The position numbers and the translations under genes are program-made. The notes under the pieces were generated by a model, which was not told where the DNA came from, did not search any database, and saw only the letters and a program-made list of their open reading frames with translations. DNA of 64,000 bases from Cephalotus follicularis (lineage: Eukaryota; Streptophyta; Magnoliopsida; Oxalidales; Cephalotaceae): NCBI GenBank assembly GCA_001972305.1, contig BDDD01000263.1, forward strand, positions 31,597 to 95,596, read 5' to 3'. Each line of letters opens with the position of its first letter. Within the stretch, counting starts at the first letter, position 1. Of this stretch, positions 3,555-53,319 are shown one piece after another.

Positions 3555-3920
3555 AAACCGTCGACGCTCAGAAATAAAGTGTCAGCGCTTTGTGCAACAG
3601 TCGAGACAATGAACAAAGCGTCTACCGTTGAAGTATTTTGAGGAGAGGAACAAATGCTCAAACCTTCGACGCCTAAATTTAAGCGTCTGCGCTTTAAGGC
3701 AAAGCGTCTGCGCTTTGACACACGGAGTCTGCTGATTAAACCAGTGACTTAAGGAGGAATTCAATTTGGCACAAGCGGCGACGCTTTGATCTAACCGTTT
3801 GCGCTTTGAGGAAACAGTCGACTCCAACATCCAGAACGCCTGCACTTTGACTCGACAAATTCAAATTAAAATACCTAACGGTCACATAAGCGTCGACGCT
3901 TTGAAGGAGACAGTCGACGC
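3555..3920. repeat. Phased array of AAGCG-N4-CGCTT dyad motifs in the copia LTR
   Basis: Four-base cores (TCGA or degenerate) start at 3561, 3582, 3601, 3621; 3666, 3686, 3707, 3728; 3778, 3798, 3818, 3839; 3893, 3914. Spacing inside groups is 19-21 bp; groups are 45-54 bp apart. Typical units are AAGCGTCTGCGCTT (arms perfectly complementary, core TCTG) and AAGCGTCGACGCTT. An additional TCGA at 3852 is out of phase. Spacer sequences differ, so this is not a simple tandem repeat. Confidence 0.75.
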
Positions 3921-4568
3921 TTTGCGCGGCTGAAAAGAATTCTGACAGAGTTTTAATGCGCCGTTTTTTATGCAACAACTTTCAAGACATACCCAATGGA
4001 TCTCTGAGGCAAAAACATATATATACAAAGGTGTTTTGAAGAGAAAAGAGGAAGGCGAACAACAAGTGACATCAAATAAAAAGATCATTCAAGAGAACAC
4101 ACCACAAGCATTCAAAAATCAAAGTTCATCTCAAAAGCCTCTATCTTATATATTAGCCCATATTTGTTCTCACTTAAATTGAGCGATCTTATCTTGTAAA
4201 TCCAGCCTTTTGAGAGGTTTAGAATGAAACACTATTTTATCTATTTCGATTGTAATAGGGGAGTGAACCCTAAAAGAAATTAGGGAGTGAACCCAAGAGA
4301 GTTGTAAGTGATTGAATTCAATCACAAAGGTGTACCGAATAGCACCCGGAATTGTATTCGGAGAATAGTGGAAACTCAAGGAGATCCTTGGGAAAAGTGG
4401 ACGTAGGCAAGAGTTTTGCCAAACCACTCTAAAATCGTGTTTGCACTCTCTCTAACTCTCTCTCTTTAAATTGTTTATTTACTTGCTTTTGTGTGCATAC
4501 ATATGTGCTCATTGGTTTGTTAAATTAAAATTGCAAAAAGTATAATTATTTTTAGAAACTACAATTCA

Positions 4569-4601
4569 CCCCCCGACCCCCCCCCCCCCCCCCCCCCCCC
4601 C
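4569..4601. repeat. Poly-C tract (6 C, GA, 25 C)
   Basis: Six C at 4569-4574, then GA, then 25 consecutive C at 4577-4601. A C run is usual near the end of this LTR class, but 25 is long, and the next element starts truncated about 20 bp later. It may be slippage expansion or a sequencing/assembly join. Confidence 0.9.
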
Positions 4602-4621: not shown

Positions 4622-6746
4622 CACTGGGGATAGAGGAGAGCTTGCTGGAGAATTGTTGGAGCTTGCATGTTGAAGGATTAGAGGTCAAAGAAGGAGTTGA
4701 AGCCTTGATTCCTGGTAAGCTTCCAATTTGGGATTATGGTTGAAGTTATAGGCTAACAGTAGTACATACGGTTTACATGTATATTGTCCATAATGTCAAA
4801 TTTAGAAATGGTAATGAAAGCGGTCAAGAATGTGAATGTGAAGCTTAGGGAATTATTGATAACTCTAATTCGAATTATAGTTGTTGTTATAGTTGTCAAA
4901 AGGTATATATATACATCTTATGTCAACACGATTAAGGTTAATGAACATGGAATTGAAATAGAATTGGCAAAGGGTTCAAAGAGAAGTTGTAAATGGGTAA
5001 TTTTGAGGCTTAATGAACTATTGATGAACTACTGTTAGAGTAGTAATTGGTATCTGGATAATTAGTTAAACTTACTGATTAAATGTCTGAACCTTCGAGC
5101 ATGCTTTGTATAGATCAATTCTGCTGAGATTGGAAGGTTAAGTTGGTGAAAGACATTTGGGAGCTCAAAGAGAGAAATCAATCCAAATTGATTTCAGGAT
5201 AGCGTTTAAGGTAGGGGTAATGACATGTTTTTGAAGATATTATATGCATATCATGTATGGTTAATTTTCTATTTGATTGCATGTGTTGATTGAGTTAGTA
5301 TTTGGACATTGAAATACATACCCTGCTACTGCCTGCCAGTTTCTGGGCAAGGCAGTCGACTGTTCTTCATGGCAGTCGACTACTCAATATATCCAGTCGA
5401 CTGTTAAGAGAAACAGTCGACTACTCAATCCAAATAGCCGACTGTCCTGGGATAAGATTCTGATATAGGTTCTGTTAGGGCCTCAATTTGAATGTAATTA
5501 ACCCGGCCCCATATGGGATGACTGTAACAGTTAATCCTGGCCTTATATAATTACATTCCAGAAATTAAACGACATATGCACTCCTGGTGAAAGTTGTGCA
5601 AGAATGACTATGGTATGCCTTGACCGTATTGAATCCTTCGAATTGCTACTGTCCTTTACTGTTTTTGCTGCATATGCTACTGTTATAATTAGTATATACT
5701 GTTTTGGGTGTTCATTAACACCACTGTCCCTTATTTTTCAAATGATTGAACCAACTAGTGCTTTAAGCACAAATATGAGTTCCTTATGGTTTTCAAAATG
5801 GAAATGTATAATGTCAAATGATTACTGTGTTTCCTCCAACGTGAGGTACTGTTACTGTACCGAATATCGTTTTCCTCCAAGGAGATGTACGATTACTGAA
5901 TTTTTATATGTTTCAAAAGAAAACAACCCTATATTACAATTTAAAAACTTGTGTAATATTACTAAATTGATTGAATTGATTGTCTATGCTATTGCCGTTA
6001 GTCGAGTGATAGGAGACATCACTGGCTACGGAGGTAGTCCTATGTGACAGGAGTTGGCTAGAGAATCCACCCAAATTGTCTGCAATTGCAGAGGTTGATT
6101 GTTAAACTGCCCGCTAATGCCGGTAGTAACTGACCTGATTTATCATCCTCGGAGTGAAGGGTGATAGATAGGTGGTGCACTGTTGGTGCTAGGAGTTAGC
6201 GACATGTGACACCCAAACCACTGTACTGATTGATTGTACCCTTGTGCGGTATTCTTGCATTGTACTGTCTATGGCCACTTGGCATGATTGCTTAAATATT
6301 GGAATATTAAGATGCTATTTTATATATATAATGTCATACATGTTGCATCTATAGATTCGATTATCATGCATTATCTTCCTACTTAGCCAAGTGAGGACAA
6401 CGGGTAACCCCTACAATTTCAAATTAAGCAAAGACGTACGGGAGGTGCTATTGGAGCTTTTGGAGAGTTTCTATTCTGTTAAGGTTGTTACTCTTATGTT
6501 GTAATTAGTTTTGTAATGAACGATTCGCACTCCGTTGTTGTTGTTGTACTTTCCTTATGTATAAGGATATTATTGGATTGTATAAGCACGTAGTATGGGC
6601 TTCGTGCGGATGACTTTTATAATCCGGGTCATGGAATGCTTCCGCTTATATATTTGAATTGTTATTATTTATTGCTGGATTGTTTACTTATTCCTGATAT
6701 TACCACATATGTTGTCTAAATGTAAGGGAATTAACTGGGTGTGACA
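4622..6746 (+). repeat. Tekay-like LTR1 (5' LTR, first ~510 bp missing)
   Basis: Aligns to LTR2 from CACTGGGGATAGAGG onward and ends GGGTGTGACA followed by the primer binding site. About 510 bp present at the start of LTR2 is missing. It carries private differences in its 5' half and is one 20-bp array unit shorter than LTR2 and LTR3. A stretch readable as 147 codons at 5604-6047 is non-coding LTR. Confidence 0.9.
5353..5446. repeat. CAGTCGACTG array, five units, in LTR1
   Basis: Units start at 5353, 5373, 5394, 5414 and 5435, spacing 20, 21, 20, 21. The first four contain GTCGAC; the last is degenerate (TAGCCGACTG). Confidence 0.9.
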
Positions 6747-6749
6747 GCA

Positions 6750-6761
6750 TGGTATCAGAGC
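6750..6761 (+). other. Primer binding site, copy 1
   Basis: TGGTATCAGAGC three bases after the LTR end (6746), complementary to the 3' end of initiator methionine tRNA, the usual primer of plant LTR retrotransposons. Confidence 0.85.
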
Positions 6762-6849
6762 ATATTCCATATACGCTAGCTGGGATAAGTTTCTCGGAAA
6801 TTAAGTGAATTGTTTCCTAATGATTATGTCATTCCATATAGGAAACCGA

Positions 6850-7787
6850 ATGGACCTACGAAGAGGTAGAAGAGGAAGGCTTAGAGCCGACGAAGTAGTT
6901 AATGCACCGCCAGTGCACGAACATGATCCGCCAGCGAATGAAGGAGTAAATGTTCCTCCAGCGCATGATGAGAGGAGTAACTTTGACCGCATGGCTGACC
7001 TCTTTCAACAACAGATACAAGATAATGCGGTGGATTTGGCCTATCATCAGGCTCCTGAAGCTTGTCATACTGGTGGATTTGGCCGAGATCTGGAGCGGTT
7101 CATGAGACAGAATCCTCCGACATTCAATAGTGAACTGAATGCTATTGTGACCGAGCAATGGATTAGAGATTTGGAGAAAATATTTGCTGCCCTTGAATAT
7201 ACTGATGAGCAGAAACTCAACTTTGCTGTATACCGCTAATGGGGCGAGGCTACTTATTCGTGGGAAAGGACTGAAGCAAAGTGGGAATCCCATGGACTTG
7301 ACAGGACTTGGGATAGATTTCAGTCTGAGATCCTTACCACTTATGTGCCACAGATAGAACGTGACCGGAGGGAGACCGAACTGATGGAGTTACATCAAGG
7401 GGACATGACGGTAGCTCAGTACCAGACTAGATTTGTGGAACTGGAAAGACATACACCTTATCTTGTGGAGGGTGAATCATGAATGATCCGAAGGTTTCTA
7501 AAAGGCCTTCGACCTGACATCAGATATAAACTGTTGGTGTTGCAGCTAACCTCTTTTGTAGACATTGCTGAGAGGGCAATGATTCTGGAAGCCGATGTGA
7601 ATGAGAGAAGGGCGGAACGGACTTGTACTAATCAATCGAGGGCCGCACAGTCACAGGGGTAAGGGAGTAATAATCCAGCTAAGTCAACAAAGTCTGACAA
7701 CAGAGGTCAAGGAGGTTCTCGACGTAGAAATTCACGATCAAGGACTCCTAACCGAAGCGGTCAACAAATGCGGGTGGATGAACTTTT
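6850..7787 (+). pseudogene. Tekay-like gag, copy 1, three stops and a frameshift
   Basis: Encodes the retrotransposon capsid protein that packages the RNA. I choose the ATG at 6850, starting MDLRRGRRGR, just after the primer binding region; an in-frame ATG at 6805 is upstream. The gag core (RFMRQNPP..., WIRDLEKIF) is followed by the usual acidic/basic region. The frame is broken by TAA 7237-7239, TGA 7480-7482 and TAA 7660-7662. It leaves frame near the T-run at 7784-7788, so the zinc knuckle continues in the next reading frame. Two of the stops fit C-to-T change of CGA or CAA codons. Confidence 0.9.
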
Positions 7788-10700
7788 TGTGGTCGTCAGA
7801 ACCATGATGAGACTGAATGCTGGAAAAATATGGGGAAATGCTTGAGGTGTGGTTCACAAGAACATATGCTGAACAGTTGTCCTATGATGAGGGATCAAGC
7901 ACGCGGCCAACAGGGAAGTGCTGGTGCAAGTGGTAGTGCTGCGGCTGCTCAACCGCGAAAGGATACCGGGAAGGGGACTGTGAAAGGTAGGGTCTACACC
8001 TTATCTAGAGATGATGTGCCAGAATCTACTACTGTTGTGGGAGGTACTATTTATATATCTGGCATACTAGCTCATGTATTGATTGACCCTGGTGTGACAC
8101 ATTCATTCATTGCATCCGAATTTACTTGCAATTTGCATGGTATTACTTCTTGATTGCCTTATGTACTGGAGGTGAGTACTCCTGCGGGTACTTGTCTTCT
8201 ATCTGACACTATAATGAAAGATTGTGAGATCATGGTAGCTGGGATTCAGTTATCTGCTGACTTGATAGTGTTACCTATCCGGGATTTTGATGTAATCTTG
8301 GGGATGGACTGGCTATATACTTATCATGCTTGTGTTGATTGCTATAACAAGATGATGACTTTTTACCTTCAAGATGGGACTAAGTGCATGTTTATCGGGG
8401 AGAAGAATGTTTCTGCTCCTATCATTTCGTATACCCGAGCACAGAAGTATCTCAAGCAAGGATGTGAAGGCTATTTGGCGTATGTGATTGATCATACGAA
8501 AGGTACGCCTAGTATTGAACAAGTGCCTGTTGTATGTGAATTTCCTGATGTATTCCCAGATGAACTCACTTCGTTGCCACCTGAGAGAGATGTAGAGTTC
8601 AACATCGAACTATTGCCTGGGACAACTCCTATATCTAAAGCTCCGTATCGAATGGCTCCTGCCGAACTGAAGGAGTTGAAGACTTAATTACAGGATTACC
8701 TTGATAAGGGCTTTATCAGATCGAGTGTATCACCTTGGGGAGCATCGGTTCTGTTTGTGAAAAAGAAGGATGGATCAATGCTACTATGCATCAATTACAG
8801 GCTGCTAAATCAGGTAACGGTGAAGAACAAGTATTCTCTGCCACATATTGAGGAGTTGTTCGACCAATTGCAAGGCTCTACTGTATTCTCCAAACTTGAC
8901 CTAAGAACAGGTTATCATCAGTTGAGGATCAGAGAAGGTGATGTGGAGAAGACCGCATTTCAAACCAGATATGGGCATTACGAATTTCTGATACTGCCGT
9001 TTGGTTTGACAAATGCTCATGAAGCCTTTATGTGTCTGATGAACAAAGTGTTCCAACCCTATCTTGACCAGTTTGTCGTTATATTCTTAGATGACATCCT
9101 GATTTATTCGAAGAGCATTGAGGAACACATGCAACACTTTAGAATTGTATTGCAGACACTGCGAAAGGAACAACTATACGCAAAATTCAGCAAGTGCGAA
9201 TTTTGGTTGGACCATATGACTTTCCTAGGTCACATAGTGTCAAGTGAAGGATTGTCGGTGGATCCTTCGAAGATAGAAAGTATTGTTGATTGGCCCCAAC
9301 CATGGAATGTTACTGAGGTTCGTAGTTTCTTGGGATTGGCTGGCTACTACCAAAGGTTCATCAAAGGGTTTTCGAAGCTTGCCACACCGTTGACACAGTT
9401 GACTGAGAAGAAGTCAAGTTTTGTATGGGATGATTCTTGTGAGGCAAGTTTCCAAGAGTTGAAGAGTCGGTTGATTTCGGCTGCAGTACTGGCATTACCG
9501 GAAGGTAATGATGGTTTCACTGTCTATACTGATGCTTCTGGGAAGGGATTGGGATGCGTTCTTATGCAACATGGTAGGGTGATTGCATACGGATTGAGGA
9601 AGTTAAAGCCGTACGAAGAAAATTATCCCCTCCACGATCTTGAGTTGGCAGCCATAGTGTTTGCTTTGAAGAAATGGAGGCACTACCTCTATGGTGCTCA
9701 ATTGGAGATCTTTACTGACAACAAAAGTTTAAAGTATTTATTTTCCCAGAAGGATCTCAACATGAGACAGAGACGATGGGTGGAATTCTTTAATGACTAC
9801 AACTGCAACATTCAATACCACCCCGGGAAAGCGAATGTAGTGGCAGATGCGCTGAGCCGCAAGGTTATAATTGTTGGAGCAATGGTTTCACAGTGGAAGC
9901 TATTGGAGGAATTTCAGAGATGGAATCCGTTCATGGTTTCCCATGGAGTTATTGTGGAAAATCTGAGAGTACAACAGGAACTTCTTGAGCGTATTCTGAC
10001 TGCTCAGTACAGTGATTCTGAATTATGGAGTATTCGTGAGAACCTAGACATTGATTCTGAATTCTCCATTCATACTGATGGCATACTAAGGTTCCGAGGA
10101 AGGATACGTGTTCCAAATGACGGGAGCATCAAGGATGAACTACTGCAACAAGCTCACAAGTCCAAATACAGTGTTCACCCGGGAAGTTCCAAGATGTTGC
10201 ACGACCTGAAAAGAGACTACTGGTGGGGTGGCATGAAAAGAGATATTGCCGAATACGTAGCAAGATGTTTGACCTGTCAGAGAGTGAAGGCTGAACATCA
10301 GAAACCTGTGGGATTGCTGCAATCGCTACCAGTGGTTGAATGGAATTGGGACCATGTGACCATGGACTTCGTGTCAGGATTACCGAGGTCACGGAATCAG
10401 CATGAAGCAATATGGGTAGTAGTGGAAAGACTCACCAAGTCTGCTCACTTTCTTCCGATGAACATGACGTATTCTATCGAGAAGCTTGCTCGATTGTATA
10501 TCCGGGAGATAGTGAGATTGCATGGGCTGCCGATCAGTATTGTTTGTGACCGAGATGCTAGATTTACTTCAAGGTTTTGGAAGAAGTTCCAAGAAGCTAT
10601 GGGAACAACCTTGAACTTCAGCACTGCATTTCACCCACAGACTGACGGACAGTCCGAGCGTACTATTCAGACTCTGGAGGATATGCTACAGGCTTGCATG

Positions 10701-11405
10701 ATTGATTTCGCTGGGAGTTGGGAGGACCATCTGGCACTGATTGAGTTCTCCTACAACAACAGTTTTTGCACCAGCAATGGAATGGCTCCCTATAGAGCCT
10801 TGTATGGCAGAAAATGCAGATCACCTATTTGCTGGGACGAGGTAGGTGAGAGACAAGTGTTGGGACCGAACTTGGTACAGGAGACTACTGATAAAGTAGG
10901 GCTAATCAAGAAGAGACTACTAGCTGCACAAAGTCGGCAGAAGAGTTACGCCGATAGCAAGAGAAGAAAGCTAGAGTTTGAGAAGGGGGATCATGTTTTC
11001 CTGAAGATCTCGCCTTCGAAAGGGATACACCGTTTTGGCCTCAAAGGGAAGTTGGCTCCAAGGTATATTAGACCTTACGAGATACTGGAAAGAGTGGGGG
11101 ATGTAGCATACCAGATTGCACTACCGCTTAGATTATCAGATGTGCATAACGTATTTCATGTTTCGATGTTACGGAAATATGTACCCGACCCATCTCATAT
11201 TTTGAGCTACGACCCTGGATTCATTAGCCCTAGATTGACTTATGAGGAAAGGCCGACAAGGATAGTAGATCGGATGAAAAAGGTACTCAGGAACAAGACC
11301 ATTCCTATGGTAAAAGTGCTGTGGCGTTTTCACGGAGTGGAGGAAGCTACGTGGGAGCATGAGGACGAAATGATGGAGACATTTCCTCACTTGTTCGAAA
11401 TGTAA
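7788..11405 (+). pseudogene. Tekay-like zinc knuckle, protease, RT, RNase H, integrase, chromodomain tail, copy 1, two stops
   Basis: One frame from 7788, broken by TGA 8151-8153 and TAA 8685-8687; from 8757 it is open for 882 codons. In order: zinc knuckle CLRCGSQEHMLNSC near 7843; aspartic protease with DPG where family members have DS/TG (near 8083); RT with FLDD at 9084-9095; RNase H from about 9520; integrase zinc-binding region near 10150 and catalytic D (MDF near 10360), D (CDRDARF near 10546) and E (SER near 10651); GPF/Y-like module near 11050; and a C-terminal chromodomain-like tail ([18 protein letters not shown]) ending at 11405. Chromodomains in this group guide integration to heterochromatin. 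The stops and altered protease triad make it inactive. Confidence 0.93.
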
Positions 11406-11430
11406 GGGCTAAATTCGAGGACGAATTTTC

Positions 11431-11446
11431 TTTAAGGAGGGGGGAA
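11431..11446 (+). other. Polypurine tract
   Basis: TTTAAGGAGGGGGGAA directly before the LTR start TGTAATAACC; the purine part primes plus-strand DNA synthesis. The same tract recurs at 18786-18801. Confidence 0.85.
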
Positions 11447-11618
11447 TGTAATAACCACAATTTCAATTAATGTATATAGCTCAATTTTTTTTATAAAATA
11501 TACATTTTAATTGAGATTATTTGTCCAATTATCATAATAATTGTGATTAGTGAATATTTGGGTTGGTTAGAAATACAAATTGGCAAACAAATTTAAGGAA
11601 CCCTAAAATCAGCTCAAA

Positions 11619-11676
11619 CATCCGACTGTCACAGGGTAATAGTCGACTGACTGATGCGTGGTGTGACAGTCGACTG
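11619..11676. repeat. CAGTCGACTG array A in LTR2 (near LTR start)
   Basis: Units at 11619 (CATCCGACTG), 11640 (TAGTCGACTG) and 11667 (CAGTCGACTG), about 170-220 bp inside the LTR. Duplicated at 18974-19031 in LTR3; the equivalent part of LTR1 is missing. Confidence 0.8.
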
Positions 11677-12687
11677 GAACGGCACAGAACAAGTGTATGT
11701 GCATGTATGTGAGACAGAGTTGTGGCATTGCATGATGGACAGGTGTTAGGCGAAGTCACTAACTGCCATAGCATGCAAAAAGGAGTGCCTTGCATGTGCT
11801 CTGTAGAGCTACAACCTGCAAGACAGAAATGGGAAGAAGAGAAAGATGAGAAAGAAATGGACATGTGAGAGAGAGAAGGAGGAAATGTTGAAGGGAAGTA
11901 ATGACACGAACTGAGCCTTATATCAGCTGTACATGAGCTGACCGAGTGCAAGAAAACACTGGGGATAGAGGAGAGCTTGCTGGAGAATTGTTGGAGCTTG
12001 CATGTTGAAGGATTAGAGGTCAAAGAAGGAGTTGAAGCCTTGATTCCTGGTAAGCTTCTAATTTGGGATTATGGTTGAAGTTGTAGGCTAACAGTAGTAC
12101 ATACGGTTTACATGTATACTATCCATAATGTCAATTTTAGAAATGGTAATGAAAGCGGTCAAGAATGTGAATGTGAAACTTAGGGAATTGTTGATAACTC
12201 TAATTCGAATTATAGTTGTTGTTATAGTTGTCAAAAGGTATATATATACATCTTCTGTCAACCCGATTAAGGTTAATGAGCCTGGAATTGAAATAGAATT
12301 GGCAAAGGGTTCAAAGAGAAGTTGTAAAAAGGTAATTTTGAGGCTTAATAAACTATTGATGAACTACTGTTGGAGTAGTAATTGGTATCTGGATAATTAG
12401 TTAAACTTACTAATCAAATCTCTGAACCTTCGAGCATGCATTGTATAGATCAATTCTGCTGAGATTGGAAGGTTAAGTTGGTGAAAGAGCTTTGGGAGCT
12501 CAAAGAGAAAAATCAATCCAAATTGATTTCGGGATAGCGTTTAAGGTAGTGGTAATGACATGTTTTTGAAGATATTATATGCATATCATGCATGGTTAAT
12601 TTTCTGTTTGATTTCATGTGTTGATTGGGTTAGTATTTGGACATTGAAATACATACCCTGCTACTACCTGCCAGTTTCTGGGCAAGG

Positions 12688-12799
12688 CAGTCGACTGTTC
12701 TTCATGGCAGTCGACCACTCAATATATCCAGTCAATTGTTAAGAGAAACAGTCGACTACTCAATCCAAACAGTCGACTGTTCTTGGGAACAACCGACTG
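12688..12799. repeat. CAGTCGACTG array B, six units, in LTR2
   Basis: Units start at 12688, 12708, 12729, 12749, 12770, 12790; spacing 20, 21, 20, 21, 20. Includes the CpG-decayed core CAGTCAATTG at 12729. Repeated in LTR3 at 20043-20154. Confidence 0.9.
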
Positions 12800-14104
12800 T
12801 CCTGGGATAAGATTCTGATATAGGTTCTGTTAGGAACTCAATTTGAATGTAATTAACCTGGCCACATATGGGATGACTATAACAGTCAATCCTGGCCTTA
12901 TATAATTACATTTCAGAAATTAAACGACGTATGCACTCCTGGTGAAAGTTGTGCAAGAATGACTATGGTATGCCTTGACCGTATTGAATCCTTGGAATTG
13001 CTACTGTCCTTCACTATTTTTGCTGCATATGCTACTGTTATAATTAGTATATACTGTTTTGGGTGTTCATTAACACTACTGTCCCTTATTTTTCAAATGA
13101 TTGAACCAACTAGTGCTTTAAGCACAAATATGAGTTCCTTATGGTTTTCAAAATGGAAATGTATAATGTCAAATGATTACTGTGTTTCCTCCAACGTGAG
13201 GTACTGTTACTGTACCGAATATCGTTTTCCTCCAAGGAGATGTACGATTACTGAATTTTTATATGTTTCAAAAGAAAACAACCCTATATTACAATTTAAA
13301 AACTTGTGTAATATTACTAAATTGATTGAATTGATTGTCTATGCTATTGCCGTTAGTCGAGTGATAGGAGACATCACTGGCTACGGAGGTAGTCCTATGT
13401 GACAGGAGTTGGCTAGAGAATCCACCCAAATTGTCTGCAATTGCAGAGGTTGATTGTTAAACTGCCCGCTAATGCCGGTAGTAACTGACCTGATTTATCA
13501 TCCTCGGAGTGAAGGGTGATAGATAGGTGGTGCACTGTTGGTGCTAGGAGTTAGCGACATGTGACACCCAAACCACTGTACTGATTGATTGTACCCTTGT
13601 GCGGTATTCTTGCATTGTACTGTCTATGGCCACTTGGCATGATTGCTTAAATATTGGAATATTAAGATGCTATTTTATATATATAATGTCATACATGTTG
13701 CATCTATAGATTCGATTATCATGCATTATCTTCCTACTTAGCCAAGTGAGGACAACGGGTAACCCCTACAATTTCAAATTAAGCAAAGACGTACGGGAGG
13801 TGCTATTGGAGCTTTTGGAGAGTTTCTATTCTGTTAAGGTTGTTACTCTTATGTTGTAATTAGTTTTGTAATGAACGATTCGCACTCCGTTGTTGTTGTT
13901 GTACTTTCCTTATGTATAAGGATATTATTGGATTGTATAAGCACGTAGTATGGGCTTCGTGCGGATGACTTTTATAATCCGGGTCATGGAATGCTTCCGC
14001 TTATATATTTGAATTGTTATTATTTATTGCTGGATTGTTTACTTATTCCTGATATTACCACATATGTTGTCTAAATGTAAGGGAATTAACTGGGTGTGAC
14101 AGCA

Positions 14105-14116
14105 TGGTATCAGAGC
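14105..14116 (+). other. Primer binding site, copy 2
   Basis: TGGTATCAGAGC after LTR2, identical to the first copy. Confidence 0.85.
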
Positions 14117-14204
14117 ATATTCCATATACGCTAGCTGGGATAAGTTTCTCGGAAATTAAGTGAATTGTTTCCTAATGATTATGTCATTCCATATAGGAAA
14201 CCGA

Positions 14205-15142
14205 ATGGACCTACGAAGAGGTAGAAGAGGAAGGCTTAGAGCCGACGAAGTAGTTAATGCACCGCCAGTGCACGAACATGATCCGCCAGCGAATGAAGGA
14301 GTAAATGTTCCTCCAGCGCATGATGAGAGGAGTAACTTTGACCGCATGGCTGACCTCTTTCAACAACAGATACAAGATAATGCGGTGGATTTGGCCTATC
14401 ATCAGGCTCCTGAAGCTTGTCATACTGGTGGATTTGGCCGAGATCTGGAGCGGTTCATGAGACAGAATCCTCCGACATTCAATAGTGAACTGAATGCTAT
14501 TGTGACCGAGCAATGGATTAGAGATTTGGAGAAAATATTTGCTGCCCTTGAATATACTGATGAGCAGAAACTCAACTTTGCTGTATACCGCTAATGGGGC
14601 GAGGCTACTTATTCGTGGGAAAGGACTGAAGCAAAGTGGGAATCCCATGGACTTGACAGGACTTGGGATAGATTTCAGTCTGAGATCCTTACCACTTATG
14701 TGCCACAGATAGAACGTGACCGGAGGGAGACCGAACTGATGGAGTTACATCAAGGGGACATGACGGTAGCTCAGTACCAGACTAGATTTGTGGAACTGGA
14801 AAGACATACACCTTATCTTGTGGAGGGTGAATCATGAATGATCCGAAGGTTTCTAAAAGGCCTTCGACCTGACATCAGATATAAACTGTTGGTGTTGCAG
14901 CTAACCTCTTTTGTAGACATTGCTGAGAGGGCAATGATTCTGGAAGCCGATGTGAATGAGAGAAGGGCGGAACGGACTTGTACTAATCAATCGAGGGCCG
15001 CACAGTCACAGGGGTAAGGGAGTAATAATCCAGCTAAGTCAACAAAGTCTGACAACAGAGGTCAAGGAGGTTCTCGACGTAGAAATTCACGATCAAGGAC
15101 TCCTAACCGAAGCGGTCAACAAATGCGGGTGGATGAACTTTT
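14205..15142 (+). pseudogene. Tekay-like gag, copy 2
   Basis: Equals the first gag shifted by 7,355 bp, including the same three stops (TAA 14592-14594, TGA 14835-14837, TAA 15015-15017) and the same frame change before the zinc knuckle. I found no difference from copy 1. Shared defects show that the duplication came after the decay. Confidence 0.92.
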
Positions 15143-18760: not shown

Positions 18761-18801
18761 GGGCTAAATTCGAGGACGAATTTTCTTTAAGGAGGGGGGA
18801 A

Positions 18802-32739: not shown

Positions 32740-32905
32740 CAGTCGACTGGATTCTCCACCAGTCAGCTGTTCTGAGAATTTAGTACGTGAGTAGTCTCCT
32801 GGTTCGTTCTACCAGTCTACTTGTTCATTAGGCAGTCGGCTGTTAGTCTTCAACAGTCGACTATTTAGGTTGAGTAGTCGACTCTCTTCCTTCGACAGTC
32901 GACTG
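32740..32905. repeat. CAGTCGACTG array B in solo LTR
   Basis: Units start at 32740, 32760, 32792, 32813, 32833, 32854, 32875, 32896 (spacing 20, 32, 21, 20, 21, 21, 21). Variants include CAGTCAGCTG, CAGTCGGCTG and TAGTCGACTC. Confidence 0.88.
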
Positions 32906-33719: not shown

Positions 33720-33870
33720 CAGTCGGCTGTCCATACCCAACAGCCGGCTATTCGCCTGACAGTTCGTTGCCATGTGGCTCGACAGTTGGCCAGTCGACTG
33801 GTTCATTCCACCAGTCGACTGCTTCCATACGCAGTCAACCAATCGGCTGGTCTACTGTACCAGTCGACTG
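33720..33870. repeat. CAGTCGACTG array A in solo LTR
   Basis: Units near 33720, 33741, 33760, 33783/33791, 33812, 33832/33840, 33861. Clear members are CAGTCGGCTG, CAGCCGGCTA and three CAGTCGACTG. Confidence 0.82.
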
Positions 33871-43182: not shown

Positions 43183-44474
43183 AATGGTTTATGCAAAACG
43201 AGGTAGATGACATTCTGGATGACTTAACCGTCGACGCCCACGTTATAAGCATCGACGCTTTTACGTGTTAGAACTATTATCGTCGATGCAAAGGTAAAGC
43301 GTCGACACCCTGTTGAACATTGCAGGTGTTGCGATGTTCATAACGATTCCTAACTTGCTAAATGTTAGTGTGATGATTTGGATACATATGTATGGAACCC
43401 ACTACGCGTATTACACATGAACGGAACGCCTCTGGGATTGCATGTAGGTTTGGGGGATGAATTCTCCCTTGGATCATGACTGGTGGAAGTGATATTCATG
43501 TTATCACTTAAACAGTCGACACTTAAGATAAAGCATTGACGCCTGTGGAATGGTACGCTATGGAAATGGAACTATTGAAGCGTCGACGTTAAGGTTCCTA
43601 CCTTAAGCATCGACGCCCTCGAATTACATGTCAACGCTCAAGGGTCCTGACCTTGAAGCGTCAACGCCATTGGAAGGGATCAACGCTTTACATTGTGATA
43701 AGCACTGACGCTTGGAATGGAAATGTCGACGCTTAGAGATCATAAGCGTCAACTCCCAGGGGATAAACGTCGATGCTTATCCCCCTACTATTTCAGATTG
43801 AAGCAGCGGATTGGCTATGAACCAGCTTGGATGAGGAACAAGTTGTAATAATGTATTTATTTGGAATTGTATTCTTCTGGATATTGTTAAGTTGGTTCTG
43901 TACTAAATGGTGGTTGTACACTGCATTATTGGTTTACATGTTTTATGTTGTTAATGGATAACGTCATGATCATGCTTCATCGTGAGCTGTTAGCATTTAG
44001 TCGTACTTGTTATGAAATATCAATTGGTGTTGAAACGATGGAACCATGTACTAGTTAAAGTGATCGGATTATTGCATAACGGATTATGACATTTATTTAA
44101 TGGGGTTGCATTGTTATTATGATTGATGAATAATGTTTACCGTACTTGATGATTTTACGCATCGTACGGATCGTTAAATGTTATTGAAATCAATGGTTCA
44201 AGTACCTTTGGATTAAACATCATCGTATTGATGGATTTATGAAATGATTGAATCATGCTCCATTTTGTGGGCAATTAACGATGGAGTTTGATTAAGTGTT
44301 GGTAACATGTGGTGTGGGACGCATGTTACGTTGTTTAATTCGGATTATAATTTGAATGCTTCCGCAAGATGTAAACTGTCCTAAAGGTTTTAAATTTTAC
44401 CGTAAATTGTATTGGCCGGATATCGTGTTAATTGCTTAAGCTTTCGCGTTTGTTTGTGAAAACGGGGCGTGACA
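43183..44474 (+). repeat. Gypsy F 5' LTR, truncated and internally deleted
   Basis: Matches 47280-49423 but lacks about the first 1,020 bp of the LTR and an 893-bp internal block. Ends GGGGCGTGACA at 44474 before the primer site. Carries AAGCGTCGACGC units at 43231, 43252, 43283, 43302 and then from 43516 to 43770. Confidence 0.85.
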
Positions 44475-44582: not shown

Positions 44583-45722
44583 ATGGATGGTAGAAGGAAG
44601 TGCGGAAGGACTAGAGCTGTGGACGAGAATGCTCCACAAGAGGCCAATGTGCCACAAAATGCAAATGTGGGGAGAGATCCGATGAATCTCATGGCTGATA
44701 ACTTCCAACAATATCTGGCTACCATTGCAGCAAATACAGAGGCGATGCGGCGCTCGTATGCCCATGGTGCACATAATGATGGTAATCAGTTTGGGACAAA
44801 CCTTGAGAGGTTTATGAGGCAGAATCCTCCTAGCTTCAAGGGAGAGCTCGATGCTACAATTGTAGAAAGATGGTTACATGATCTAGAGAAGATCTTTGAT
44901 GTGATGGAATGCACCGATGGTCAGAAACTAAGATTTGCTGTATATTGGTTATGTGAAGAGGCCACCCACTGGTGGGAGATGGTCAAGGCAAAATGGGAGT
45001 CAATTGGGCTTGATAGTACTTGGGATAGGTTTCAGGAGGAGTTCTTGGTGACCCATGTGCCCCGGATTGAGCGGGAACAGAGAGAGACAGAACTCTTGGA
45101 GTTACGTCAAGGTGACACGACAGTGGCCGAATATCAGGCCAGATTCATGGAATTGGCTACACATTCAGCATACTTGGTGCCTGATGATGAAAAGAAAATT
45201 CGGAGATTTCTGAACAGCTTGCGACCGGATCTTCGGTCAAAAATTAGAGCTATGGAGCTGGAGACCTTTGTACAGGTTGCTCAAATAGCAAGATTGTTGG
45301 AGAGCATATTAGATGAAGACCATGCTGAGAGGGCGCTGAGCAAACAAATCTCTACACAGTCTAGACCCGCCTCATCAAAATGACAAAGTAGTGATTCTCC
45401 AACAAAATCAGTGAAGGATAGATCTCAATAGATTGCTATTAAGGGTGCTACTAGTATGGGAAGTAATGTGAAAACAGTACTTTGCTTCCATTGCGGCCGT
45501 GTAGGCCATCAGCAGAAGGAGTGTTGAGCAAAGAATGGATTCCGTACGAGGTGTGGTGCACCCAGTCATGCAAAGACCAAGTGTACGAGACGTCAGACAA
45601 GAGTGCTTACTGGACCTACGATTAGTGGCGGCACTGCGGCCGAACCTTCACGACAGGTAGATAAGGGCAAAGGTATCATGAGAGGTAAGATTTTTACTCT
45701 TACTTTTGAAGTTTACTTCTGA
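44583..45722 (+). pseudogene. Gypsy F gag, Tekay-like, with zinc knuckle
   Basis: Starts MDGRRKCGRT at 44583, just after the leader, and is open for 266 codons to TGA 45381-45383. The same frame goes on to 45722 with two more stops. The gag core (LERFMRQNPPSF, LRQGDTTVAEYQ, RRFLNSLRPDLRS) is well kept. Zinc knuckle CFHCGRVGHQQKEC lies near 45482, with a second cysteine cluster after it. The match to a normal Tekay gag-pol breaks off at GKIFTLT, where protease should begin. This is the best-kept gag in the window and could produce a capsid-like protein of 266 residues without the knuckle. Confidence 0.88.
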
Positions 45723-46079
45723 TGTCGAAAGTACTTCGTATTGCTTAATATAAAGTGTTATTGATTGACTGGATTGTCCGTGGTTGTGATTGGATAGATG
45801 GATACTAAGAAATATTAAGTTAGGACCTACGAGGGCTAACTAACGTGTACGAGAATGAATAAATGGTTGACCTAACGGTCAAGGGAATTATTGGATATTG
45901 TCTGATTGACTGAGAAAATGAACAACCATACACAATGTGTTGGTATAGGACAACGTGTGTCCTTAGCTAACTTCTATATTCTTCTTGACATAATAAATGA
46001 GTGTGGGCCGTATCGTATCCATACCGGTTGTATCGAATGGTGGACTGGATGGTGACTCGACGAAAAGATCGGCGAGGAT
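45723..46079 (+). other. Unrecognised segment replacing pol in gypsy F
   Basis: About 360 bp with no protease, RT or integrase words and no long reading frame. It lies between the gag end and the chromodomain scrap. Might be filler from the deletion event or untranslated sequence of a non-autonomous subfamily. Confidence 0.5.
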
Positions 46080-46235
46080 TCCGGATTGGAAGACTCGGGT
46101 GTTGAGGGACCGAACCATACCTATGGTGAAAGTTCAATGGTAGTTCCGCTATCCTGATAAAAAGAAGTGAGAATGTGAAGAGGATATTAGGGAATAATAC
46201 CCTAATTTACTCTACAAGTGTTGAAAAAATTCGAG
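46080..46235 (+). pseudogene. Gypsy F chromodomain-end remnant
   Basis: Reads as RVLRDRTIPMVKVQW with a stop, followed by a frameshifted end near YPNLLYK, the same position as the chromodomain-like tail at 11290-11395. RT, RNase H and the integrase core are missing. Confidence 0.8.
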
Positions 46236-46243
46236 GACGAATT

Positions 46244-46262: not shown

Positions 46263-46422
46263 TGTAATGCCCGGGAATTTCACATGATATAATATTTTAA
46301 TTCTGATATAATTCGATTGTGAAATTAAGGAGATATGATGGGAACTCCATATTCTTATGTAGCAATTTGACAAAGGAATGTCAAGGTGTTGTTTGGAATT
46401 GAAATGTTGAAATATTGAACTG

Positions 46423-46561
46423 AAGCGTCGACGCTTATGAGACATGCGCACACGTAAACCATTCACATGCATGTCGATGCCTGTTGATAACGTCGACGCC
46501 TTTGAGGTAAAACGCTTTAAGCGCTGACGCTCAAAAGATAAACATCGACGCTTTACGTCGA
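46423..46561. repeat. AAGCGTCGACGCTT array A in gypsy F LTR
   Basis: Cores at 46428, 46450 (degenerate), 46474, 46493, 46524, 46545, 46558. The first is the perfect 14-bp palindrome AAGCGTCGACGCTT. Offset from the LTR start (165 bp) equals that of array A in the Tekay-like LTR2. Confidence 0.8.
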
Positions 46562-47315
46562 GTATCAGACAAGTTTAAGCAGACGGGAAACGTGTCACGT
46601 GGAGGTGGGGAATGCCACTCTTCAGGTGCGTTCACAGGTAGTTGTGACGTGTTGTGCATGCATTATAACGCCCTGACTTACCAGGACTGAAAAGGGAAGA
46701 AAGGATATGACAACGGTGTGCATGCAACCTGGAAGGGAGGAAGAAACAGACACATGGTGCACATGCAACCAGGTGAGAATGGGGTGTTACCTACACATGC
46801 ATGTGGGCTGAGAGAAGCCATAAAACTCTCCTCTCATCAGCTCGCCTACGGGAGAGAAGGAAGAGGAAGAGAACACATAAAACAAAAGAGAAAAAGGAGA
46901 GAAATGGTGGAGAAAAGGAAAAAAGTTGGGAGAGGGGTTGGACCTCCATTGCTGAACCTGGTTCAGAGCTTGGAGCTTGGAGTTGTTGGACAAGGATTGA
47001 GGCTGCTGTGACGAGTTTTGGAACACAAAGAGGTGGACTTGAAGTTCCTAACTTGGAACAAAAGGTAGGGGATTGTAGTGGAATTATACATATTCATTTG
47101 AGTTCAATGATGGTGTTTTGCCATGGATGACATGCTTGAATTGTAAGTTGATTTAGGATTGTTTGGATTGCTCGATCGGTTGCATGGCTACTGTAATGTG
47201 AAGATTGACCATGCATGACTTGTTTTGAGTAAGGATTGAACTAGATTACATGAATACTTGATTTGTAATTGTCTAGTTTCTACGAAATGAGGAAGATGAC
47301 ATTCTGGACGACTTA

Positions 47316-47866
47316 ACCATCGAAGCCCATGTTATAAGCGTCGACGCTTTTACATGTTAGAACTATTAACGTTGAAGCTAAGGTAAAGCGTCGACACCCT
47401 GTTGAACATTGCAGGTGCTGTGATGTTCATAACGATTCCTGACTTGCTAAATGTTAGTGTGATTATTTGGATACATATGTTAGGAACCCACTACGCATAT
47501 TACACGAGAACGGAACGCGTCTGCGATTGCATGTAAGGTTGGGGGATGAATTCTCCCTTGGATCGAGACTGGTGGAAGTGATATTCATGTTATCAGTTAA
47601 ACGGTCGACACTTAAAATAAAGCATCGACGCCTGTGGAATGCTACGCTTTGGAAATGGGACGTTTGAAGCGTCGACGTTAAGGTTCCTACCTTAAGCGTC
47701 GACCCCCTCAAATTAAATGTCGCCACTTAAGGGTCCTGACCTGGAAGCGTCGACACCATTGGAAGGGATCAACGCGTTTTACATTGTGATCAGCACTGAC
47801 ACTTGCAATGGAAACGTTGACACTTAGAGGTCATAAGCGTCGACTCCCAGGGGATAAACGTCAATG
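47316..47866. repeat. GCGTCGACGC array B in gypsy F 3' LTR
   Basis: Cores at 47320, 47341, 47372, 47391; 47605, 47625, 47672, 47699, 47720, 47750, 47769, 47796, 47817, 47840, 47861. The same layout is seen at 43231-43773 in the 5' LTR with core substitutions at CpG. Confidence 0.85.
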
Positions 47867-49423
47867 CTTATCCCCCTGGTTTGGTTGGATTGGCCCGAAT
47901 TGGACCTGCTAACTCCGAAACGATTCTAGGCATGTTTGAGCATATGATTACATCGCATTTGCATTGTATTGGGTCTGGATTGTCGATTGCATGGATAGTT
48001 ATTGCTTTAAAAATGATTTATCATTTTTAGGGAGCTGCATTCATGACATGTTGCAAATTATTATTTTGCATAAAATGCTATATTAAAACTGATATACGGT
48101 TGGAAAAGGGATTGATGCATGTTTTGAATAAACTTGTTGTTTTATAAGGGATTGTTACATATGTTGAACGAATACGTTTTTAGAAGTATTTTATGATACA
48201 TATTTTACTTGGAAAATGGATTGTTTTATAAAATGGCGAATATATATTTTCAGAAGTATTTATTTTTATAGATGACTTGAATTGGATTGTGTTTGTAACT
48301 CTGTTAGTGCGGTGACGGAGGTTGTCACTTACGCTAATGGTAGGTTGTTCCTTGGGGCCAGGAGTTGGCAGGACACCACACTATGAGCTATCCTCCGCCT
48401 ATGTGCCGGTTAGACTCATTTCTTTGTTGAACTTTCCTTCGCCATGTGCCGGTTAGTTTTGATTATTGATCGAACTTTCCTCCGCCTATGGGCCGGTTAG
48501 CGTCGACATGAGATAATGCTAACCCACTGGTGGCGGTTATCGAATTCGGATTGGATTGATTGGCCCTTAGTGACATGATTGATGGATTGTGTTGATGTAG
48601 CCACTTGGCATGGTTGCGTAACTATTGATCGAGATACATATAAAAATACGTATTGTATATATATTGTACTGCATCATTATGCATTCATTACATGATTTAC
48701 ATTGTTGTTGATCCCGAAAGGTACTTATACTTTCTCTACTTAGCCGAGTGAAGAAAAAGGAAAACCCCCTACTATTTCAGATTGAAGCAGCGGATTGGCC
48801 ATGGACAAGCTTGGATGAGGAACAAGTTGTAATAATGTCTTTATTTGGAATTGTAGTCTTCTGGATATTGTTAAGCTGGTTCTGTACTAAATGGTGGTTG
48901 TACTCCGCATTATTGGTTTACATGCTTTATGTTGTTCATGGATAACGTCATGATCATGCTACATTTTATGTTGTTAGCGTTAAGTCCTACTTGTTACGAA
49001 ATATCAATTGGTGTTGAAACGATGGAACCATGTACTAGTTAAAGTGATCGAATTATTGCATAACGGATTATGACATTTATTTAATGGGGTTGCATCATCA
49101 TTATGAGTGATGAATAATGTTTACCGTACTTGATGATTTTATGCATCGTGCGGATCGTTAAATGTTATTGAAATCAATGGTTCAAGTACCGTTGGATTAA
49201 ACGTCATCGTATTGATGGATTTATGAAATTATTGAATCATGCTCCATTTTGTTGGCAATTAACGATGGAGTTTGATTAAGTGTTGGTAACATGTGGTGTG
49301 GGACGCATGTTACATTGTTTAATTTGGCTTATAATTTGTATGCTTCCGCAAGATGTAAACTATCCTAAAAGTTTTAAATTTTGCCGTAAATTGTATAGGC
49401 CAGATATCGTGTTAATTGCTTAT

Positions 49424-51407
49424 GTTGGGAGCATGTACACTGAACTTGAACCACCATGGGAATTCTATTTAAATGGTCACATATCCCATGTCTGTAGAGT
49501 TTCCCATCTGAGACACTGGTGTATAGACTCTACGAGTCTAGCAAGTTCTTGATGGACTTGTCTGATCCTTAGACCTGAGCGGCTACTGTACATTGCATAG
49601 AGACTGTCTTACTTTGATTTCTGCCCTACCCAGTTCTTTCGCGGGGCTGGCAAATAGACAGCTTTTGGGTCTTGCAGGATTTATGTGAATGTAAGTGAGT
49701 GCGCAACATGGGATTGTCACACCTGATCTATGGTATCTATATGCATTTTGGACTTTGAAATACATTGCCAGGTTACGAAGAGCTGGAAACTAGGGTTTTC
49801 GGAAAGGCTTGTTGATAATCGTGATGGTAAGATACGGATTTATAGATATTGGCATATCTAGGGTTGACACGTATCCTTACCCTAGGCCGTGATCGGAGTT
49901 GATGACGACGAGGGATTATAGTACACGGTAACTCTCGTCAGGATAAAGTATCGGATGTATCAGAAACAGACTTAATTGTGGAAATTAATCAAGGGATTAA
50001 TTTACACATCTGGAATATGATAGTCAAAGGTTCAGGGTCTTAAAAAGTGTCAATGACTATTTATGCTTAGTTTACTTAAGACCAAGGCGTCTTAGTAACA
50101 TACCATCGCTACCGATCAATGCCGGACTTTCGGGTCCTGCCTCACGAGTATATGTATTGGATACATATATCGTATAGTTTTATAACGTGTGATGGCACAT
50201 GTTATATTGTAGTGTATTAGTGATGTTACGTGACTGGCTAGTTGACGTAATATACTAATATGATTATGGTATTAGAATAATAATTGGATTATTATTATCT
50301 CTTATCTCTCATTCTCTGTCTACACATTGCTGGTCGTTTTGTTGTGGCGCCAATAAATTAAAATAATCCTTTAAAGCATCTTGACAGCCAGGTTGCATTT
50401 TGGAAATGGATAAGCCATTTGTTATGGCTCCATGGATGGTAAACTGGATTTCTATTCTAGGAATGAAATCAGGTTAACTCATTTCCATTCTGGCTGGCCT
50501 TATGCTGATCCACATTTGGTGGATCACAACACTGGATGCTGAAAAGCATATCGAGAAGAAACACATTTTCGTGTAAATGGAAACTAGCCATAAGTTATGT
50601 AAGAAAGAAATGGAAATTCTTGAGTCATGGAGACAAGGATAGAAGGAAACTAAATTCAAAGGAATTCAGAATCTTTGTAATACGGTTTCTGATTTCTTTG
50701 TATAATGGCTATCCTGGTTTCACGGTTCAATTCACTAGGTGATTGAAACATATAAGGAGAGCTGGTACAAAGATAGAAAACGGGATTTTCATTCAAGGAA
50801 TGAATTCCATTAAACGCGTTTTCTGATTATGGCTTTATGACGGTCCACAATTGGTGGATCATGACATTGGATTGTGCAATGCATAAGAGAGAGGGAACCT
50901 GGACGTTTATAAAAGGTGTGCTAGTTCCTGGTTTGCAAAACATTTTTTCAGTGAGAGAGTTTTGTACTGGTTTGTTCTTAGAGAACAAAATAGTGAAAAG
51001 AGAAAACTCAATACCATTGTCTTCAAACACCACATCTTAATTTCTATAGGTGGTGTACTAATTACATTGAGCACTACGTCTCCTATATTGATCCTAGATT
51101 AGGATTAGTAATATAGGACTTGTATTTACATTGGTTATTCCGCTGCTGTCTGTTCTTCAGTGAAATCTTGAAGTCTCAGAATGGATTCTTGAAGGAAGGA
51201 GTTTGGTAGCTCCGTATAAACTCTATCCTTCTCTATATGTTTATATTGTTTGATTGGGTTGTTGATTATGGATCCTAGGTTTGTGATCGTTTATGGAGTT
51301 AGTTTATGGGATGTTTATTGTGTTTGAGCCACTTTAATGAAAATTAAAGTTACACACCCTATGTACCTAAAGCCTAAAATGACCATAAACTCGGTTTTAT
51401 TCCTTCA
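49424..51407 (+). repeat. Copia E 5' LTR (first ~390 bp missing)
   Basis: Matches 56383-58371 closely. It starts abruptly at TTGGGAGCATG, missing the TGTTCGAGAGAG start seen at 55987, and ends TTTTATTCCTTCA. Followed by the decayed primer site TTTGTATCATAGC. Contains GATCCAC...GTGGATC hairpins at 50506 and 50841. Confidence 0.85.
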
Positions 51408-53319
51408 ATTTGTATCATAGCGAATTAATCAACCCCAGTTAAACATTATTTTTTGTGGCTGTATTGGATTATATTTGTGGCTATTTGTCATTCTAAACTG
51501 TCTAACCGTCGACGGTTTTGAGTAAACCGTCGACAATTTGACGTTAAGCGCTGACAAGGTGTTGTTAAGCGCTGGTGGTAACCATGGAGCGTTGGCGCTT
51601 TGAGAAGAGCATCGATGCTTAATGGTTTAAGCTCCGATGCTTTGTCTAAAGCGCAGCAGGTTACGCAAAGCGTCGACGTTAGTGTTAAAGCTTAGCTTGT
51701 AGCCGCCGACGCTTATTATAAAGCGTCGACACTATCATCATGTGAAATGCAACAACAAAATGGAAAATCCATAAGTCATGTCTTTTAGAAATGGATATGG
51801 CACCAAAGATGGAAAACGGGATTTGTATTCATGGAATGAAATCCCATTAACATGTTTTCCATTTTGGCTGGCTTAATGGTGATCCACATTTGGTGGATCA
51901 CATCATTGGATGCATAAATTATGCAAACAGGTAATTGAAACATCCATTTTTGTCACGGTGACAAGAAAGGAAACGGGATTTGATTTTAGAAATTAAAATC
52001 CTGTTAACATGTTTTCATTATTCTTGGCATAATGGTGATCCACAATTGGTGGATCATGACACTGGATTTTAATTAATCTAGTGGGAGTAATACCGATAAA
52101 AGCCACGATTGATTCAATTAGCCATAAAAAATTAAAAGGTTTATATGTTTATTCAAAAATTATATTAGATATATTTTTGGATGTTGTTATGCATGATGGT
52201 AGGGTATGGGACTTGACCTAAATTTTAGTTTCTTTTGTGGATGTTTAAATTTGCTTTATTATTTTTATTGGGTTTGTAATTTGGTGGCCTACGAGCACCT
52301 TAATTCCTTGTTTTTAATCCTCTCTAGAATGGTGTTCTCTCCTTTATTTTTTAAATGTAATTTTTATTAAAACGGTTTGTAAGCAAAGGAAGAGAATCAG
52401 TCGGTGCTTGGAGAGGAAGATCAAGGAAGTTGCAAGACCAAGATGAAGGCCATGGATGCATGGTACTTTGTGCAATGAAGTAGAATTAAATAGTTCACCT
52501 AGGAGACCTAGTGATCACATTGGCTCATATGAATCACTATAGTATTGTCCCTAGCCTAACCATTTTATTTTGTGTTGTACTTCGGATGCATGGTTTGGAC
52601 AATTGGTCCAAACACATCATTGCATGTAAGCCGTAATTAATTGGATTTGGCTAATATAACCAAAGAATTGATTAAAGGATCGGCTTAATTAAAATGTGAG
52701 ACCTGAAATCTCTCCAAAGTTTGAAATAATAAGTCTTAACTCCAGGGACACTAAGAGTGACCCGACGTGGCCTTCCATAGTTCTCGTTGAGTGGCATGGG
52801 CAGACTGTGGGTTTGTCAAGCTATAGCTGAGGCCTGCTATATGTCCAATGTCATGTCAACGTCAGTATTAGATACTCCAAGGAAATCACAATGTTTTGCA
52901 CTTGGACACGTAAACGTGTGGGTGTCAAAACGTGTGTATTACTTTGAGGACTTTGGGTGTATACTTATGCTGGCTCTAACGATTTGTTGAGCTATAGCCG
53001 AGATCATATTGAGCTGGTAGGCCGAAGCTATGATTGGATCTTACACGAGCGTGGGTGGGATTGGATCCCAAGCTGCGTAAATTGGCAGGTGAGCCTACCT
53101 ATCTTAAGTGTTATGGTTTGTCAAGCTATAGTTGAGGCCAAAATATGCTGAGATAGATTCCCATCCCCACTAGGAGATTAGATCTCCTGAATTCCACATG
53201 GTGGTGTGGGATACGATTAGAATAGTGGGAGGAACCATAATCACTAAAGACCAAGTGTTATAGTAGTAACATAAAAATTGGAATATTTGCTAATAACCTC
53301 AAAATGTTTCCTATAGGTT
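51408..53319 (+). other. Copia E leader with decayed primer site, palindrome array and LTR-like repeats
   Basis: TTTGTATCATAGC (51410-51422) is a decayed form of TTGGTATCAGAGC. A palindrome array follows (51505-51732). Then come two segments resembling the LTR hairpin region (51755-51920 and 51950-52080), each with a GATCCAC...GTGGATC inverted repeat. From about 52680 to 53310 it shares leader words with elements A and D. No gene seen. Confidence 0.7.
51505..51732. repeat. ACCGTCGACGGT / AAGCGTCGACGC array in copia E leader
   Basis: Cores start at 51509, 51530, 51551, 51572, 51592, 51612, 51634, 51654, 51673, 51692, 51706, 51726. The first nine intervals are 21, 21, 21, 21, 20, 20, 22, 20, 19. 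Arms stay complementary where the core decays (for example GCG-TTGG-CGC at 51592). Confidence 0.88.

Follow-up and report, generated by a model that had tools for sequence, protein, structure and literature searches.

A 64-kb stretch of the Cephalotus follicularis genome (contig BDDD01000263.1, positions 31,597 to 95,596; from here on, the window) contains several long terminal repeat (LTR) retrotransposons of the copia and gypsy types. In elements of both types, we directly observed arrays of short palindromes that share a TCGA core, a step of approximately 20 bp, and a preference for pairing like halves, and whose arm types are independent of the pol tree. These palindrome arrays are real and strong and are not a product of chance. 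With moderate confidence, we interpret them as clustered sites for host dimeric DNA-binding proteins, representing a convergent type of enhancer in copia and gypsy elements. All evidence presented here comes from this one plant genome.

TCGA dyads and the 20-bp step exceed shuffled controls

In addition to the window, we analyzed 26 stretches of 10 kb (L005 to L030; 260 kb) from the same 1.58-Gb genome. The positions of these stretches were set by contig number and offset, blind to content, on contigs C10 to C200 only, and they include 4977 masked bases; L001 to L004, unlike L005 to L030, were chosen by motif. As a control, we used 100 dinucleotide shuffles. In pair counts, a site was considered dyad symmetric if at least 3 of 6 flanking positions were complementary, while a stricter count used at least 4 of 6.

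Of the 207 TCGA sites in the window, 35 were complementary at four or more of the six flanking positions compared to 6.8 ± 2.9 in the shuffles, and flank complementarity was 0.42 and 0.47 at the first two flank positions. Twenty-four TCGA pairs were spaced by 19 to 22 bp (shuffles, 1.3 ± 1.3; maximum, 5), and these make up 24 of the 82 pairs within 60 bp. Among the 805 TCGA sites of the 26 stretches, 115 passed the stricter count (shuffles, 29.6 ± 5.3), and 86 pairs were spaced by 19 to 22 bp (6.8 ± 2.5; maximum, 16), including 55 in which both sites were dyad symmetric (0.2 ± 0.5; maximum, 2). An earlier note on the window had described these dyads and clusters; they sit where it placed them, and their spacing and symmetry are far above the shuffled controls in the window as well as in the 26 stretches.

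Of the 16 self-complementary 4-mers, TCGA alone combined a flank excess with a peak at 19 to 22 bp, and it did so in the window and in the 26 stretches. In the latter, at least 4 of 6 flanks matched in 0.143 of the TCGA sites and in 0.028 to 0.081 of the sites with other cores, and the share of pairs at 19 to 22 bp was 86/360 (0.239) for TCGA and 0.04 to 0.141 for other cores. TCGA also centers 29 of the 85 palindromes that are perfect over 12 bp and have two or more G/C in each arm. Thirteen of the 26 stretches carry at least one array of at least three such dyads, a count made without shuffle control. A search for clusters of at least three palindromes with other centers, using perfect 6-bp arms and gaps of 0 to 3 bp, returned a single case (two TCGA dyads and one TGCA palindrome in L029), and this is a weak test because the criterion is strict and also misses most TCGA arrays.

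Genome-wide, two copies of CAGTCGACTG are located exactly 20 bp apart at 8471 places compared to 36 for a reversed-pattern control, and at a spacing of 30 to 32 bp at 729 places compared to 6, with the places listed for this spacing mostly belonging to one family; because the families are multicopy, these places are not independent events. Single-linkage clustering by BLASTN (E value of 1e-8, at least 60 bp) of the 45 first-pass arrays in the window and L001 to L024 gave 28 groups, and this separation makes one recent shared insert unlikely.

Two half-site types rarely mix

Reading outward, we distinguished the half-site types A (GACTG), B (GAYGC[TC]T), and C (GAYGT[CG]). Neither half could be typed in 783 of the 1062 TCGA sites in the window and L001 to L031. 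Among the remainder, like halves paired (AA, 51 with 4.9 expected; BB, 15 with 3.5 expected; CC, 20 with 3.6 expected), while A seldom joined the other types (A-B, 1 with 8.3 expected; A-C, 1 with 8.4 expected; together, 2 versus 16.7). B-C pairs were in excess (23 versus 7.1 expected), and B and C, therefore, look like variants of one type. Thus, there are two half-site types that rarely mix, i.e., GACTG and GAYG(Y)CTTT, and this homotypic contrast partly reflects uniformity at the level of families, as the type is uniform within arrays. Only two typed dyads mix a GACTG half with a B or C half, at position 3914 of the window and position 1646 of L019, and these are possible intermediates between arm types. 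The earlier note had also listed ACCG/CGGT as the arms of a family; by eye, this pair is complete at one site only (51509), ACCG recurs as a left half with a different partner at 3561, 43231, and 51530, and the pair does not hold for a whole family.

Arm types do not follow pol descent

The copia pols in the sample are 70 to 84% identical to one another at the amino acid level, and the arms of these relatives are CGCTTTG in the window, GTCTTT in L006, GTGTTT in L007, and CTG in L029 (three dyads). The gypsy pols are 54 to 87% identical (rows of >450 residues) and come with CTG arms in the window, L001, and L009, GTCTTT arms in L010 and L015, and CGCTT arms in L019 and L031, the last of which has three imperfect sites only. 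Arm types are independent of the pol tree, which is without support values and in which the L001 row is short, and copia and gypsy elements share arm types.

Positions of the arrays in the elements

The arrays and coding regions of the window are as follows.

861 to 1811 and 2244 to 3458: copia integrase and reverse transcriptase (RT)
3561 to 3936, + strand: copia dyad array between the pol stop (3458) and a TATA-like box; mostly GACGCTTTG-like half-sites; 12 sites, 6 with TCGA
4018 to 4025, + strand: TATA-like box, 81 bp past the copia array
5353 to 5444, + strand: dyad array of gypsy LTR1 (4622 to 6746); half-site GACTG; TATA-like box at approximately 5544
8757 to 11405: gypsy pol, identical at 16112 to 18760
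12688 to 12799, + strand: copy of this array in gypsy LTR2 (11957 to 14101), longer than that of LTR1 by one 20-bp unit
20043 to 20154, + strand: copy of this array in gypsy LTR3 (19312 to 21456)
26752 to 27087, no strand assigned: dyad array in an LTR-like region; half-site GAYGTCTTT; 11 sites, 10 with TCGA
32740 to 32905, no strand assigned: dyad array; half-site GACTG
33720 to 33870, no strand assigned: dyad array; half-site GACTG
38952 to 39399, no strand assigned: dyad array G; 17 sites; GACTG or GGCTG half-sites; TCGG cores commonest
43226 to 43780, + strand: dyad arrays in the 5' LTR of gypsy element F; half-site GACGCTT
44583 to 45383: gypsy gag of element F
46422 to 46556, + strand: dyad array; first TCGA 216 bp past the last F pol similarity (46063 to 46212)
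47312 to 47872, + strand: dyad arrays in the 3' LTR copy of F
51504 to 51733, + strand: dyad array in the leader of copia element E, approximately 100 bp past the 5' LTR (49422 to 51407); ACCGTCGACGGT first, then mostly AAGCG/CGCTT
53602 to 54291: copia gag

The statement that the cores mostly read TCGA does not apply to the copia LTR at 3561 (6 of 12 sites) or to array G (5 of 17 sites with TCGA and 9 with TCGG).

The array starts approximately 100 to 350 bp past the last pol similarity in several elements and 1.2 to 1.3 kb past it in others. Based on LTR pairs, the array of the window gypsy element is within the LTR, and the copia E array is just outside its LTR. In 5 of 13 pol-oriented elements, a TATA-like box is located 60 to 150 bp past the array compared to a control rate of 0.088 (binomial p = 0.004), with the range and the array ends picked after inspection, one array end used for each of F, L010, L015, and L019, and L001 and the window gypsy element being relatives. 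This proximity favors the enhancer activity proposed earlier and is suggestive only. The CpG observed/expected ratio was 1.29 to 1.87 in five B/C-type arrays versus 0.60 in the rest of the window.

Concerning the elements themselves, we identified no 5' LTR of the window copia element (861 to 3458) in the 10 kb upstream. Tekay-like is the label given in the earlier note to the element at 4622 to 21456, for which the domain scan lists gypsy RT, RNase H, and integrase domains but no chromodomain. This element has the layout LTR-internal-LTR-internal-LTR with a period of about 7355 bp, and its two 882-amino acid open reading frames (ORFs) are identical, yet LTR1 and LTR3 differ by ~4%; the layout reflects either unequal recombination or an assembly duplication. 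Directly ahead of its first LTR is a poly-C run (4569 to 4601), possibly an assembly or slippage artifact at the copia LTR end. In the 3' LTR copy of F, ~0.9 kb (47877 to 48765) that is missing from the 5' copy contains a small dyad cluster of its own (48470 to 48543).

The step is independent of palindrome length

For array anatomy, we used 28 arrays from the window and L001 to L024, one per sequence group, with sites called by family matrices. Among neighboring spacings of up to 110 bp, 111 of 196 were 19 to 22 bp (two L015 spacings enter twice due to overlapping scan ranges). The remaining neighbor spacings span 10 to 95 bp, and 77 are at least 24 bp; thus, the earlier description of a spacing of 19 to 22 bp almost everywhere was too strong. 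The step is the same in GACTG arrays, in which the palindrome is 10 bp, and in AAAGAC/GTCTTT arrays, in which it is 18 bp. In non-GACTG arrays, a short step followed a short one with a frequency of 0.38 and a long one with a frequency of 0.75 (129 transitions), and this alternation indicates that doublets ~20 bp apart are common. GACTG arrays run longer (short after short, 0.68; 30 transitions). We also considered a helical register over long gaps, for which all-pair plots were periodic near 10.2 to 10.3 bp, and dropped it because the pairs are non-independent.

Proposed explanation and its alternatives

We suggest that the arrays, most of which lie within or close to the U3-like segment of the LTR and one of which lies in a leader, would be occupied by host dimeric proteins that increase the transcription of the element or set its timing. 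Each dyad would represent two like half-sites read by a homodimer, and the ~20-bp step would be fixed by protein packing together with DNA twist, as the 10-bp CAGTCGACTG and the 18-bp AAAGACGTCGACGTCTTT palindromes do not differ in it. Together, this length-independent step, the like halves, and arm types that vary without regard to pol descent point to homodimeric binders of host origin; binders encoded by the elements appear less likely, as types are shared across unrelated elements but not among related ones. The half-site types, of which there are at least two, may correspond to different host proteins or to paralogues. Copia and gypsy elements would have reached the same few types convergently with repeated type switches, which could proceed via point mutation and the gain or loss of single units, with one-unit changes (seen once) as the raw material. 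Protein binding, the host origin of the protein, and the enhancer function are putative and are read from the DNA sequence. The idea of sites for dimeric proteins was already part of the earlier note; the step, the like halves, and the types shared across families fit it better than they fit one inherited repeat, while the phasing past the 20-bp step and the full exclusion of slippage that accompanied it are not supported. Proteins of the bZIP class bind as dimers. We also considered BED-type zinc fingers (DREF-like) and RWP-RK proteins as candidate binders, and a single literature query on BED/DREF returned nothing.

Several observations weigh against this explanation. First, L013, L014, L021, L025, and L028 bear pol and had no array by the criterion of the stretch scan; L013, with a pol 78% identical to the window gypsy pol, has scattered CGCT-like dyads. 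Second, helical phasing, as claimed earlier, was not significant past the ~20-bp step: for the register of neighbor gaps of at least 24 bp, p was 0.11 using TCGA-only sites and 0.54 using family matrices. Third, the copia E array is placed not in U3 but in the leader, past the LTR, and a TATA-like box is missing 60 to 150 bp past the chosen array end in 8 of the 13 elements and within 400 bp in 6. Fourth, CpG is not enriched in the four tested GACTG arrays (observed/expected, 0.5 to 0.85), and CpG decay in LTR pairs gave no clear protection at dyads (loss at 3/17 dyad TCGA, 15/54 other TCGA, and 114/350 other CpG, with 17 dyad sites only). Fifth, arms within their own site paired at 818 of 1463 positions compared to 787 ± 12 when shuffled among the sites of an array (p = 0.005; 22 arrays), and at 981 compared to 948 ± 11 (p = 0.0015) with G-U allowed, which we included because TCGG self-pairs with G-U; in both counts, sites were partly picked for symmetry. 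Finally, a typical bZIP site is shorter than the 18-bp dyad.

The two pairing counts bear on the possibility that the palindromes act in RNA through hairpins that contribute to small-RNA production and to silencing, a proposal made for the LTRs of maize Sireviruses. RNA folding beat dinucleotide shuffles in the three arrays tested (z = −2.1 for 3550 to 3945, −8.4 for 26740 to 27090, and −4.6 for 38940 to 39400), within-site pairing with G-U included is slightly above that of shuffled arms, and small-RNA hotspots over Sirevirus palindromes are described in the covered parts of PMC10760457 and PMC5311732. Nevertheless, we consider this possibility unlikely. Palindromes fold whatever their role, and a hairpin needs neither a fixed 20-bp step nor a TCGA center nor half-site types that rarely mix. 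Moreover, the within-site pairing excess is small and partly stems from site selection, and hairpins would expose the element to silencing and so would account for a cost rather than for the spread of the arrays. Hairpins may, therefore, be a cost rather than the purpose of the palindromes.

A role as anti-silencing or insulator sites, at which bound proteins would maintain an unmethylated or open LTR in the manner of VANC on VANDAL elements, is less probable still. The B/C-type arrays are CpG-rich, and motif arrays that change fast between relatives resemble VANC targets. However, loss of dyad CpG after insertion was not clearly slower than at other sites, and the silencing evasion put forward in the earlier note draws no support from it. 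Also, the five window proteins scanned have domains of the gag, integrase, RT, and RNase H types only, with no VANC protein among them (shorter ORFs were not scanned).

Growth of a minisatellite, in which chance palindromes without function were multiplied by slippage or unequal exchange, is very unlikely. Such growth would fit the observations that the Tekay-like LTR1 is short of exactly one 20-bp unit that LTR2 and LTR3 have and that several units in array G are near-identical over 20 bp. On the other hand, spacers differ in the compared GACTG arrays except G (likeness of 0.42 within arrays in 23 comparisons versus 0.37 between arrays in 82 comparisons), the step is constant across arm lengths, and core and arm types recur in elements without sequence similarity. 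The dismissal of slippage in the earlier note went too far in view of the missing LTR1 unit and the near-copies in G. Least probable of all is that one or two arrays were captured as segments, passed from family to family through recombination or template switching, and diverged afterwards: plants commonly have chimeric LTR elements and the arm types are few, but same-type arrays are split among the 28 BLASTN groups and arm types are interspersed on the pol tree, itself without support values.

Returning to sites for host dimeric proteins, we tentatively propose that a few host dimeric regulators may have drawn unrelated copia and gypsy families into one cis-grammar, the alphabet of which would switch as the regulators change. 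If so, these arrays would reflect, in a plant, the kind of arms race that sets LTRs against sequence-specific proteins of their hosts, and the regulatory code of plant LTR elements would converge across superfamilies. The CAGTCGACTG and AAAGACGTCGACGTCTTT arrays would provide two short baits for the candidate host protein driving or restraining the elements. The proposal also bears on why LTRs retain palindromes that invite small-RNA silencing.

Comparison with known systems

The closest known system is the RM boxes of Sireviruses. In the covered parts of Bousios et al. (2010; PMC2829016), RM boxes are CpG-rich palindromes in the LTRs of 13 Sireviruses, upstream of the TATA box, and are called Sirevirus specific and absent from the classic Ty1/copia elements examined. 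Two of the 13 consensus boxes are centered on TCGA (Vitis, CGGTCGACCG; Tnd-1, ACAATCGATTGT), and a CGG-CCG signature is present in 12, with Tnd-1 as the exception. As with RM boxes, there are many copies of a short palindrome per LTR with a sequence that varies by element, and the RM-box copy number of at least 8 is reached by the copia LTR (12), G (17), the 26752 array (11), and L006 (19), while several arrays have fewer. Unlike RM boxes as described there, the arrays have TCGA with CTG, CGCTT, or CGTCTTT arms in place of the CGG-CCG signature, and copia and gypsy elements share the TCGA center, the ~20-bp step, and the two half-site types; the step and arm switching are absent from the parts of PMC2829016 covered. 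The copia LTR at 3561 had been called SIRE-like. Its element is copia based on an RVT_2 domain, but the exact octamer of the polypurine tract (AGGGGGAG), a mark of Sireviruses 10 bp before the 3' LTR, has a single copy in the window, at 1488 within the integrase ORF (exact copies only; variants not searched). Moreover, gypsy elements carry arrays too.

In maize, the same palindrome is described in Copia and Helitron elements in the covered parts of PMC10760457, and sharing across orders of transposable elements (TEs), therefore, has a precedent. Similarly to the arrays here, the maize cis-regions in the parts covered of PMC10760457 and PMC5311732 have palindrome clusters with hairpin potential in regulatory parts of the LTR; the maize motif CACCGGACNNNGTCCGGTG is without a TCGA center, and the small-RNA data there are from maize only. 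VANC targets, according to the covered parts of PMC5735166, are likewise arrays of short motifs in non-coding TE DNA with rapid turnover and differ between relatives. However, their motifs point the same way, belong to VANDAL DNA transposons, and are recognized by a protein that the TE itself encodes, whereas the motifs here are palindromes, and the analogy with VANC made in the earlier note is, therefore, a loose one. The bZIP protein FD recognizes motifs containing ACGT or TCGA and binds GTCGAC in the FT promoter, as stated in the covered parts of PMC13360168; this site is centered on TCGA like the arrays, but is there a single site in a gene promoter, with neither arrays nor longer arms.

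Outside plants, double CAGTCGACTG dyads are present in 14 stretches (L042 to L055) of the GTDB contigs (257 Gb), all bacterial or archaeal by title and four from Sporosarcina, and may be operator or repeat arrays. Among viral contigs, the double GACTG dyad was found in 0, and single B-type and C-type dyads were found in 3 and 7 stretches, respectively, none of which is similar to the window gag or pol. L039 has a few dyads that are 18 to 31 bp apart. Among the literature matches listed, which are mostly open-access and were judged by title and start of the abstract, none describes a TCGA palindrome grammar shared across copia and gypsy. Thus, the palindromic LTR array of the Sirevirus type is known, while its spread over copia and gypsy elements with a common center and step appears to be new.

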